A stretch of 35,475 nt of DNA from Bacillota bacterium (GTDB taxonomy: Bacteria; Bacillota; Dethiobacteria; Dethiobacterales; Dethiobacteraceae), in NCBI GenBank assembly GCA_012523945.1, contig JAAYSO010000001.1, forward strand, positions 1-35,475. Reading direction: 5' to 3'. The translations under genes were made by a program, and so were the position numbers. Shown piece by piece: positions 7,540-27,297 of this stretch. A model generated the notes under the pieces. That model made no database searches. It was not told the origin of the DNA and saw only the letters and a program-made list of their open reading frames with translations. Every line of letters begins with the position of its first letter. Position 1 is the stretch's first letter.

Positions 7540-9990
7540 ATGTTTATGTTTGGACGATTTACGCAAAGAGCGCAAAAAGTACTGCTTTTGGCACAGGAAG
7601 AAGCCGTGCGGTTTGCACATAATTTTGTGGGCACAGAGCATATTTTACTGGGGCTTGTGAGGGAAGGGGAAGGTATTGCTGCAAAAGTTTTGCTTTCTTT
7701 AGGTGTAGACTTGGCAAAAGTCCGTGCGGAAATTGAAAAAATGATCGGTAAAGGCAAGCAAGAATCCTCAACTCAGAATCTAAATTACACGCCCCGGGCG
7801 AAAAAAGTAATTGAATTGGCCATTGAGGAAGGACGTAATTTAGGGCACAATTATGTGGGCACTGAACATCTCCTTTTAGGCCTGATCCGGGAAGGGGAAG
7901 GGATTGCTGCTCAAGTTCTGGCTAACATGGGTGTTGATCTGGGGAAAGCGCGTAAATCAGTTTTGGCGCATTTAGGAAGCAGTCCCGGCGGCCATCCCGG
8001 CGGAGGGGAGCAAGCCACAGCAACACCAACACTGGATCAATTTGGCCGCGATCTGACCAAACTGGCTCAAGAGGGCAAATTGGATCCGGTAATTGGCAGA
8101 GAAACGGAAATTGAGCGTGTAATCCAAGTGCTGTCCCGCCGCACGAAAAATAATCCTTGCCTGATTGGCGAACCCGGTGTGGGCAAAACTGCAATTGCGG
8201 AAGGTCTGGCACAAAGGATTGTTGAAGGCAATGTGCCTGAGACCATCAAAGATAAAAGAGTGGTAACACTGGAATTGGCTGCAGTAGTAGCAGGGACAAA
8301 ATACCGCGGCGAGTTTGAGGAGCGCCTGAAGAAGCTCATGGATGAAGTGCTGAACGCCGGCAATGTTATCATCTTTATTGACGAGCTGCATACAATCATC
8401 GGTGCCGGCGCCGCTGAAGGCGCCATTGATGCTTCCAATATTTTAAAACCGGCTTTAGCCCGGGGTGAGATGCAAGCCATCGGTGCCACCACACTGGATG
8501 AGTATCGTAAACATATTGAACGTGATCCGGCTTTAGAACGCCGTTTCCAGCCGATTATGGTGGGCGAGCCTAATAGGGAAGAAAGTTTGGCCATTTTAAA
8601 GGGTTTGCGAGATCGTTACGAAGCACACCACCGGGTAAATATTGAAGATGAGGCACTGGAGGCTGCTGTGAATCTTTCAGATCGTTATATCACAGACCGC
8701 TTTTTACCCGATAAAGCCATTGATTTAATTGATGAGGCTGCGTCCAAAGTACGGATGAAAACTTATACGGCTCCGCCCGATCTGAAAGAAAAGGAAGAAC
8801 GTCTGGAAACACTGCGGCAGGAAAAGGAATCTGCCGTGCGCAGCCAGGAATTTGAACTGGCGGCAAAATTGCGCGACAAGGAACAACAGTTAAAAGCCGA
8901 ACTGGAAAACCTGAAAAAAGAATGGGAACAAAATAAAGTAAAAGATACCCAATCTGTAACAGCCGAAGATATTGCCGAGATTGTTGCCGCCTGGACAGGT
9001 ATTCCGGTTAACCAGTTGAAACAGGAAGAAACGGAACGTTTGTTAAATATGGAGGATATCTTGCATGAACGTGTCATCGGCCAGGATGAAGCTGTAAAAG
9101 CTGTTTCCCGTGCCATTCGGCGGGCGCACGCCGGACTTAAAGATCCTAAACGGCCTATTGGCTCCTTTATCTTCCTGGGTCCCACCGGTGTCGGTAAAAC
9201 CGAACTGGCCAGAGCTTTAGCCGAGAGCCTCTTTGGTGATGAAGATGCTATGATCCGGTTGGATATGTCGGAGTATATGGAAAAGCATACAACGGCACGT
9301 TTAATTGGTTCCCCTCCGGGTTATGTGGGCTATGATGAGGGCGGCCAACTTACGGAAAAAGTTCGCCGCAAACCTTATTCAGTAGTTTTGTTTGATGAAA
9401 TCGAAAAGGCTCACCCGGATGTATTTAATGTCTTGTTGCAAGTGTTGGAAGACGGACGCCTGACAGACGGTAAAGGGCGCACAGTTGATTTTCGCAACAC
9501 TGTCCTCATTATGACCTCAAATGTGGGTGCCAGCCAGTTAAGAAAGCAGACTTCGCTAGGATTCAGGGCGTCGGATCCGGAAAAATCCTATGAGGATATG
9601 AAGGACCAAGTTATGGATGAATTAAAACGGACATTTAGACCTGAATTCTTAAACCGTATTGATGAAATAATTGTTTTCCATGCTTTGGAAGAAGAACATT
9701 TAGCGGAAATTGTTACTTTAATGCTCAAAGACTTAAAAGGACGCCTGGACGATCATGGTATTGGTTTAGAAGTGACGGAAGCTGCCAAGGCATTCCTTGC
9801 CAAGGAAGGATATGATCCCACTTATGGCGCACGTCCTTTACGCAGGGTTATCCAGCGCAAAATTGAAGATGAAATCTCGGAGCTGTTGCTGCGCGGTGAA
9901 TATACGCGTGGTGATGTAGTCCGCATCGAAGAAAAAGACGGAAAACTTATTTTTGCCAAAGCAGATCTTTCTGCTCAAAGCACAGTTTAA
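7540..9990 (+). CDS. clpC: ATP-dependent unfoldase ClpC
   Basis: An 816-residue Hsp100 unfoldase that feeds arginine-phosphorylated and adaptor-delivered substrates to ClpP. Two N-terminal Clp_N repeats lie at about 1-145. The first AAA+ module has Walker A GEPGVGKT near residue 211, and a UVR-containing middle domain follows at about 415-470 ([18 protein letters not shown]). The second AAA+ module has Walker A GPTGVGKT from residue 547, and a C-terminal D2-small domain follows. The full domain order and length match ClpC rather than ClpB (long middle domain) or ClpE (zinc finger). ATG 7540 follows GAGGAGGG; an alternative ATG two codons later is possible. ClpP is not in the window. Confidence 0.97.
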
Positions 9991-10005
9991 TTTCCTGGTT
10001 ATGAG

Positions 10006-10048
10006 GCTGCTGCGCGAACAGGTTTTAGTTCGCGCAGCAGCTTTTTTT
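10006..10048 (+). terminator. Strong intrinsic terminator of the clpC operon
   Basis: A 14-bp perfect GC-rich stem (10006-10019 with 10028-10041) followed by seven T. Confidence 0.95.
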
Positions 10049-10059
10049 CGGTTAGGAAA

Positions 10060-10158
10060 TTTGAAGAGAGGTCGGGTCGTAGGCCCGCCGAAGTGGTGGC
10101 AACCCTAAAGGACAAGTAAGACGCGTCATAAAAAACGCGAAGCGTCTTTCTTGATTTG
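10060..10158 (+). ncRNA. Structured RNA-like element, class unknown
   Basis: This segment of the 513-base gene-free region (9991-10503) is GC-rich and full of short helices. CGGGT pairs with GCCCG (10073-10077 with 10083-10087). The alternative CCGCC/GGTGG stem (10085-10089 with 10095-10099) excludes the first. The final hairpin is AAGACGC/GCGTCTT (10118-10124 with 10142-10148), followed by tcttgattt. Purine-rich single-stranded-looking stretches (ggcaaccctaaaggacaag) separate them, as in riboswitch, attenuator or guide-RNA scaffolds. It sits just after the clpC terminator and 346 bases before acsE, with no obvious promoter of its own. I could not assign it to S-box, T-box, glycine or cobalamin classes. 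Part of it resembles 27197-27230. Confidence 0.35.
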
Positions 10159-10275
10159 TAATTTTCTGATATTTCTTGCCAAAAGACTAAGAGGGATTGT
10201 GCTTATTCTGTAGAATCACATACACATGTACATAGCTGATAAATATCGAAAAACGATAAATTTTGAGAAAGTACA

Positions 10276-10286
10276 AAAAAAGGAGG
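10276..10286 (+). other. Shine-Dalgarno-like site without a gene
   Basis: AAAAAAGGAGG is a textbook ribosome site, yet the ATG immediately after it opens a four-codon frame and nothing longer starts within range. It may be the relic of a lost gene, a leader peptide (MFYL then stop), or chance. The rest of 10159-10490 is AT-rich, and I see nothing else in it. Confidence 0.3.
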
Positions 10287-10425
10287 ATGTTTTATTTGTA
10301 AAAAGGGAAGAGCACGTTTTTAACGAATAGTATACTAAAGCCCTTGATTTAGTTGCTTTTGTTTTTTTATCTGCTACTAATGGGTAAAAGCCGGCTGCTC
10401 TTAAATAAATAAACGGATGGCCTGA

Positions 10426-11295
<870 letters not shown>

Positions 11296-27092: not shown

Positions 27093-27117
27093 AAAAAGCC
27101 CGGAAACGGGCTTTTTT
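27093..27117 (+). terminator. Intrinsic terminator of ftsEX-hydrolase operon
   Basis: A 10-bp stem (27093-27102 with 27107-27116), GAAA loop, T-run ending at 27117. Confidence 0.92.
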
Positions 27118-27120
27118 AAT

Positions 27121-27247
27121 CGGTTAGGAAACCTTGTCTTCTTGATTTGCCTATTCCCCTAACCTCTGAGTGTTGTTAAGGGCACCTCAAGTTTGCGAGG
27201 TGGTCATGACCGGAGGGCCACCGAAGGAGCCGGTCCGGACCGGCTCC
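27121..27247. repeat. GC-rich palindromic intergenic element
   Basis: The 293-base gap 27072-27364 holds, after the terminator: an inverted pair GGTTAGG/CCTAACC (27122-27128 and 27158-27164); a CACCTC/GAGGTG hairpin (27183-27188 with 27197-27202); the palindrome GGTCATGACC (27202-27211); and a perfect 22-base palindrome (27226-27247, half-site GGAGCCGGTCC). The GC content stands out from the AT-rich flanks. No T-tract follows the long palindrome, so it is not a normal terminator. Part of it resembles the element at 10060-10158. Confidence 0.6.
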
Positions 27248-27297
27248 GGAAAAAATCACTAGCTGTGTAGAAACTACAATCTGGCAGCATGTTGCAG

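Follow-up and report, generated by a model that had tools for sequence, protein, structure and literature searches.

IS200/IS605-derived palindromic elements and REP/RAYT systems produce no target-site duplication, hold a fixed orientation to a short target, bear terminal hairpins and occur in many intergenic copies, and group II introns have ends of the form GUGYG..AY. According to PMC8919778, bacterial-C-type (group IIC) introns insert immediately 3' of rho-independent terminators, sparing genes. The bcr1 repeats of the Bacillus cereus group have copies on plasmids, as stated in PMC6542083. The orphan Rfam family Clostridiales-2 (RF02937) has no assigned function and is typed by Rfam as an sRNA gene, with Rfam information that shows neither mobility nor an address behind terminators. 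A literature search of a limited collection returned no paper on Clostridiales-2 RNA, on a Dethiobacter repeat or noncoding RNA, or on terminator-linked repeats.

Here we describe a gene-less dispersed element with two copies in the window, by which we mean the whole analysed stretch of 35,475 nucleotides. It shares with group IIC introns, as described in PMC8919778, the address directly behind intrinsic terminators, which for the element is a statistical preference; however, those introns comprise a full ribozyme with a reverse transcriptase, whereas the element is about 180 nt in length, several copy-bearing genomes yielded no reverse transcriptase, and its ends do not fit those of group II introns. 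In size, number and T-rich site it is like bcr1 as portrayed in PMC6542083; in an indirect comparison, blastn of one copy against 72,556 plasmids revealed no DNA similarity. With IS200/IS605 PATE and REP-RAYT systems it has in common that it lies 3' of a short target in a constant orientation, that hairpins are present at its ends and that no target duplication was seen at the few resolved junctions, but it differs by a long conserved internal core and by having no Y1 gene with matching ends. It is also like HEARO/omega RNA (RF02033) in being a structured RNA-like part of a mobile element.

Hairpins P2 and P3 follow each other in the element as they do in RF02937, and both contain the motif GGGUGCUCAGG..CGAAGGG, with the Rfam model covering the middle of the element only and leaving P1, P4 and the 3' palindrome outside. 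Intact relatives, though not the window copy itself, gave three end-to-end alignments that scored 41.8-48.8 bits (E 9e-7 to 7.4e-9) and spanned the full 82 positions of the model, and per-genome E values went down to 1e-12. The cut-off of 58.6 bits was reached in 0 of 12 and 0 of 398 genomes (best scores 56.5 in G204 and 55.4 in G011), and positions 9700-10500 of the window had no RF02937 match at E<=10. By sequence comparison the core therefore appears as a sub-threshold but clear relative of this orphan family. We consider it probable that the element is mobile but non-autonomous, is mobilised in trans and has a core resembling RNA, and that the stretch between clpC and acsE is a worn copy of it.

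The clpC-acsE gap and the two copies in the window

The clpC gene (ORF 7540-9990, a Clp-family ATPase by NCBIfam) and an acsE-type methyltransferase gene starting at 10504 (NF005719) enclose a gene-free gap of 513 bases (9991-10503). The T-tract closing the clpC terminator occupies 10042-10048, and the element begins at the very next base. The start at 10007 given by the covariance model was rejected as the element start because the model had aligned the clpC terminator as P1. The features of both copies are as follows.

10003-10048, plus strand: intrinsic terminator of clpC, stem and T-tract; landing site, outside the element (direct sequence)
10049-10153, plus strand: copy 1 of the dispersed element, degenerate and internally deleted (covariance model, 73.7 bits, E 1.3e-19)
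10049-10062, plus strand: 5'-end remnant CGGTTAGGAAATTT, including the conserved AGGAAATT of P1 (by-eye comparison with full-length copies)
10074-10086, plus strand: hairpin P3, GGGTC-GTA-GGCCC (covariance model; helix included in the covariation count)
10095-10104, plus strand: worn hairpin P4, GGT-GGCA-ACC, consensus GGGGYGGCARCCCC (alignment, covariation count, covariance model)
10113-10153, plus strand: 3' palindrome P5, which closes the element (inverted repeat I5, folding, covariation count)
27093-27117, plus strand: landing site of copy 2, a terminator-like hairpin GCCCG-GAAA-CGGGC with T-tract that follows an M23-peptidase-like gene (read from the sequence directly, absent from the list of the terminator scan)
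27119-27282, plus strand: copy 2, diverged; P1, linker and core are present and P4 (27227-27248) is enlarged (covariance model 27120-27282, 35.6 bits, E 1e-8); no recognisable P5 or 3' palindrome

About 70 nt are gone from copy 1 3' of 10062 (P1 loop, P1 3' arm, linker and P2, judged by eye against full-length copies). Little of P1 and nothing of P2 is left in it, P4 is incomplete, and it looks dead through decay. The initial annotation, made from the letters of this gap, had reported a structured element with mutually exclusive helices, a purine stretch and a last hairpin with a modest T-tract. The element is real, as its repetition in the genome and its covariation attest, and all three features lie where claimed: the purine stretch ggcaaccctaaaggacaag spans 10098-10116, the palindrome (10113-10127/10139-10153) has an alternative in CGCG..CGCG at 10122-10139, and the T-tail of the last hairpin is weak. 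Its remark that common riboswitch classes do not fit also held, with no Rfam riboswitch above cut-off and no Rfam family at gathering score in the window; the sub-threshold hits to Ms_IGR-8 and M-box are located on the clpC terminator. The homology search for covarying copies that it had suggested returned 47 covariance-model matches in the genome of the window (G000) and strong covariation in the alignment described below. Single-sequence folding is weak evidence: the 111-nt stretch had z -1.38 and was equalled by 17 of 200 shuffles, its 3' part had z -2.72 and was equalled by 2 of 200, and the support beyond chance is comparative. No sigma-70-like promoter match was found around the window copy, with 1.1 expected by chance.

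Anatomy, covariation and spread of the element

An intact element is about 180 nt long, contains no gene and consists of a P1 stem holding a nearly constant AGGAAATTAT, a linker of GGGG, the P2 hairpin, a core that includes the hairpins P3 and P4 (consensus GCGGGGTGsTCAGG..CCGAAGGGGyGGCArCCCCTA), and the palindrome P5, which occurs as CAAGAAAGACGC..GCGTCTTTCTTG, ATAAAAAAGACGC..GCGTCTTTTTTAT or GAACAAAAGCAT..ATGCTTTTGTTC. Its 3' end reads TTTTTTA or TTTCTTG and resembles the target. The covariance model was built on an alignment (A1) of 36 sequences, namely 39 representatives of 98 full-length copies, minus six and plus three distant ones; those left out had another repeat inserted (L057 and L238), a deletion (L118) or wear (L028, L006 and L004). 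The repeat that splits L057 and L238 is a palindromic one (GGGCGGGTTTGAAACCCGCCC), GTAG-type REP in appearance.

In A1, 153 double-changed cells were counted vs 52.6 after shuffling, with 22-44 in slid-partner controls, 21 pairs had double changes vs 15.8, and 89.3% of the cells were paired vs 79.8%, in counts where the shuffle control leaves the relatedness of the copies in and the P5 register comes from the RNAalifold fold. Pairs changed on both sides numbered 8 of 10 in P1, 3 of 9 in P2, 3 of 5 in P3, 1 of 5 in P4 and 6 of 12 in P5. RNAalifold itself proposes P1 and P5, and instead of P2-P4 it pairs G- and C-runs (columns 77-80/157-160, 88-90/137-139 and 140-143/149-151). Because the shuffles ignore relatedness and RNAalifold pairs the middle runs otherwise, we regard P1, P3 and P5 as the best-supported helices. 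A further helix, P3b (CCGC/GCGG), was dropped for its overlap with P3. Between three PH28-type and 10 family copies, the core was 0.85 identical, compared with 0.20 for the P1 loop and 0.18 for the P5 loop. A second subfamily (L222 and L224) keeps the AGGAAATTAT block (0.86), the linker (0.86) and P2 (0.74) and has a different core (0.34). None of the 39 representatives had terminal inverted repeats at a threshold of at least 11 of 16 matching ends.

The element is dispersed at high copy number. With the window DNA as the query, 22 matches at E<=1 were obtained in its own 2.08-Mb genome. Besides the 47 matches there, the covariance model at E<=0.001 gave 77 in G018 (the most), 66 in G013 and 31 in the one-contig genome G174, counts that are approximate because 97 candidates per genome were scored and matches may include remnants. 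Matches occurred in 21 of 28 genomes, comprising 14 of 19 from the family Dethiobacteraceae and 7 of 9 distant ones; the nine were picked for RF02937 hits and include the two that the model misses (G288 and G352). Another copy as the query had matches in 13 of the 19 family genomes (G000 included) and in none of 40 genomes from other families of the same class. A 26-base core pattern appeared in 75 stretches of named genomes, which are MAGs named Dethiobacter sp., Clostridium sp., Clostridiales bacterium (CROMO series), UBA7523 and PH28_bin88. Carriage as phage or plasmid cargo was rejected, since a 23-base core pattern was present in 0 viral contigs and blastn with one copy found nothing in the 72,556 plasmids and nothing in phages.

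Seven copies (L053, L062, L064, L068, L105, L107 and L116) lie some 200 bases or less from the end of a contig. Copies so placed suggest that the repeat probably breaks assemblies, so that real copy numbers may exceed the counts, and it may account for part of the fragmentation in these MAGs. Remnants were also seen. In G000, three loci (L020, L021 and L022) carry 3' palindromes that are lone or almost so; at L022 only the 5' start and the palindrome are left, at a site where G001 (L028) holds a longer copy. On the minus strand of locus L011, positions 1335-1395 are a P1-only remnant just 5' of a valyl-tRNA synthetase-like frame (by eye).

Insertion behind T-tracts and terminators

The insertion sits directly 3' of a T-tract, with a mean of 6.1 T in the last 10 bases vs 2.7 at random. 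The 12 bases 5' of 54 full-length copies show a T-tract after G/C, with a closing A in 25 of them. A hairpin ahead of the T-tract was detected in 27 of 55 T-rich copies vs 688 of 6812 control T-tracts (Fisher p 4e-13), the controls being taken from the same loci with coding DNA included, and with the hairpin defined more strictly the figures were 31 of 67 vs 93 of 2680 random positions. Overall, the hairpin was found in 35 of 81 copies and went undetected in 46, and site A of L058 is a T-tract without a detected hairpin that faces a gene start (by eye). These last two results indicate that the T-tract looks like the basic target, with terminators as a favoured source of it.

Orientation is biased as well. 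Among 62 intergenic copies, the 5' neighbour has its 3' end facing the element in 43 cases, and the 3' neighbour does so in 21 (discordant 32 vs 10, p 0.0009); of 119 distinct copies, 12 within a called ORF and 45 without a called gene on one side were excluded from this count. Tandem copies abutting the 3' end of the previous one were observed at L087, L110, G018:C29 and L042 (where the second copy is truncated), and stacked copies at L009 are separated by a 15-nt gap. Copies stack because the 3' end of the element is itself a terminator-like structure.

Movement is indicated by copies that resemble each other far more than their surroundings do. In G003 (8 copies compared), element identity reached 1.000 and that of the 100-nt flanks at most 0.47; maxima of 0.994 were obtained both in G013 (12 copies) and in G016 (8 copies). 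The copies of G000 (6 compared) are older, with a median identity of 0.75 and a maximum of 0.82. The clpC-acsE gap of the same-genus genome G001 is an empty site, where the same terminator is joined to the shared downstream sequence with no element between them, and the syntenic gaps of G008, G014 and G017 are likewise without it, these three genomes having no copy anywhere. Further empty sites were found for L050 (occupied) vs L076 (empty) and for the two L058 copies vs G005/G016. Their junctions read TTTTTTTA / element / CTAT and TATATTTT / element / ATAAAGGC, with a 2-nt ambiguity at the third, and no target duplication was seen at these resolved junctions (two clean, one ambiguous; flanks read by eye). 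A fourth empty site (L086 vs L040/L094) is too diverged to resolve. At any such two-genome site, a gain by one genome and a loss by its counterpart look alike. Two genomes carry the element at the same orthologous site (L043 and L080, flanks 72% and 68% identical), as either an old shared insertion or two insertions into one terminator.

In the mechanism we propose, a unit of about 180 nt without a gene, whose 5' and 3' ends are fixed and whose RNA-like core is conserved, inserts in one orientation at the 3' border of a T-tract, with no target duplication seen; in many cases this T-tract is the tail of an intrinsic terminator. Its core would work as a folded nucleic acid in mobilisation, and a protein encoded elsewhere would move the element as a single-stranded or hairpin intermediate; the nearest enzymatic logic is that of single-strand DNA transposition of the HUH/Y1 type or of group IIC introns with their targeting of terminators. 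The terminator-like palindrome at the 3' end would allow later copies to land behind it and form tandem pairs. Since landing behind terminators spares genes and transcripts, copies can accumulate, and the tail of transcription terminators represents a safe landing address.

Candidate enzymes, rival readings and a larger repeat

Enzyme profiles were run on 20 genomes each and matched Y1_Tnp in 13, RVT_1 (PF00078) in 8, the zinc ribbon PF07282 in 9 and IS110 in 7. None of the four was found in G000, and copy number is tracked by none of them (by eye, 20 genomes). Searches of G013, whose 66 matches include nearly identical copies, gave no reverse transcriptase, TnpB (PF07282) or IS110. G018, the genome with the most matches, contains Y1, TnpB and IS110 genes, and for this reason the argument against TnpB and IS110 comes, among the richest genomes, from G000 and G013 only. 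With family genomes that are drafts of 90-99% completeness, absence of an enzyme is not proof. Of 29 Y1 loci, only L162 (G002) holds a copy, and the Y1 gene there is bounded by its own GGGTCAGG ends; 26 of the 29, inspected by eye, have none of the element's ends around the Y1 gene, and several carry other REP-like repeats. Across several family genomes, loci L157-L178 contain RAYT-type Y1 genes, several with short flanking repeats of their own (GGGTCAGG, GGGGACGGTTC and others), which are probably several independent REP systems. G013 has one weak Y1 match (E 8.6e-8, a 188-aa frame near a contig end); this RAYT-kind match (L163) might belong to the GGGCGGGTTTGAAACCCGCCC REP-like repeat.

Against mobilisation in trans, no transposase, reverse transcriptase or integrase was tied to the element, and its mobility is read from sequence comparison. 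Two other explanations are possible, at clearly lower probability and with little to choose between them. The copies could constitute a family of trans-acting small RNA genes that extends Clostridiales-2, spread by duplication, kept for an RNA function and lodged in the free space behind terminators. This fits the strong covariation, the conservation of the core next to loops near 0.2 and the sRNA type that Rfam assigns to RF02937; the empty-site insertions, identical copies at unrelated sites, 5' junctions at T-tracts and tandem copies argue against it, as do the lack of a promoter match around the window copy and the divergence of the G000 copies. What counts against such a family shows mobility, yet may be compatible with an additional RNA role. 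Alternatively, the element could be an IS200/IS605-type (PATE-like) single-stranded DNA element served in trans by a Y1 transposase, given its single orientation 3' of a short T-rich site, hairpins at both ends without terminal inverted repeats, a 3' end like its target and no target duplication seen. However, the 13 genomes with Y1_Tnp do not include copy-bearing G000, G001, G010 and G011, and the Y1 loci and the G013 match provide no gene bounded by the element's ends. A classical MITE of the DDE type was rejected on the absence of terminal inverted repeats in the representatives and of target duplication at the resolved junctions.

A relic or satellite of a group IIC intron, with retro-mobility aimed at terminators, is unlikely. 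It would explain the address immediately after rho-independent terminators, as described in PMC8919778, but PF00078 was not found in eight copy-bearing genomes (G000, G001, G003, G007, G010, G013, G015 and G018), Rfam group II intron models had no match in the window or 18 copy loci, and the ends misfit. The initial annotation had suggested a transposon-derived structured RNA, and the hallmarks of a mobile element bring this broad idea close. Its specific version, a HEARO/omega-RNA scaffold with a lost nuclease gene, accounts for a structured transposon-like element beside a variable flank and is nevertheless very improbable: the Rfam covariance search for RF02033 had no match in the window region (E<=10), in 18 other loci (E<=1) or in the whole genome G000 (E<=10), and PF07282 was lacking from the searches of G000 and G013. 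A one-off riboswitch, small RNA or attenuator gives way to one copy of a dispersed element. Equally improbable is a cis-regulatory leader or attenuator of acsE, to which the position 5' of acsE and the alternative helices had pointed: the element is absent from four of four syntenic relatives, none of 18 other acsE-type loci carries a copy within about 1.5 kb, and about 350 nt lie between the 3' end of the element and acsE. Copies elsewhere are more often behind gene 3' ends, with no conserved position 5' of one gene class.

Returning to mobilisation in trans, mobility is a testable role for relatives of the orphan Clostridiales-2 RNA family, and RNA-motif searches can, as a caution, pick up mobile repeats. 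We put forward, as a speculation somewhat less probable than the small RNA and Y1 readings, that Clostridiales-2 RNA and its relatives may not be regulators and may instead form the functional centre of a mobile element that bears RNA and lacks genes, with the folded core bound by a host or mobile enzyme and the A-rich 5' arm of P5 reading the terminator T-tract as though it were the 3' end of the element itself. If this pairing is true, insertion behind terminators and behind earlier copies would follow from it; it is not helped by a tally, made without a statistical test, in which no link of 3'-end type to the last target base was evident. Both basic and applied work would have an interest in an enzyme able to set short DNA cleanly behind T-tracts with no duplication of the target.

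In the one-contig genome G288, an RF02937-like core was observed inside a larger dispersed repeat, about 385 bp long and present in four copies (L220, L230, L235 and L240; E 4.7e-8 to 1e-5) to which the covariance model built from the element had no match. The ends of the repeat at L230, GACAAAGTCATT and AATGACTTTGTC, form inverted repeats, and the copies at L220 and L235 lie 3' of terminator-like hairpins (by eye). Upstream of L240 is a frame that we take to be an IS1182-like transposase.
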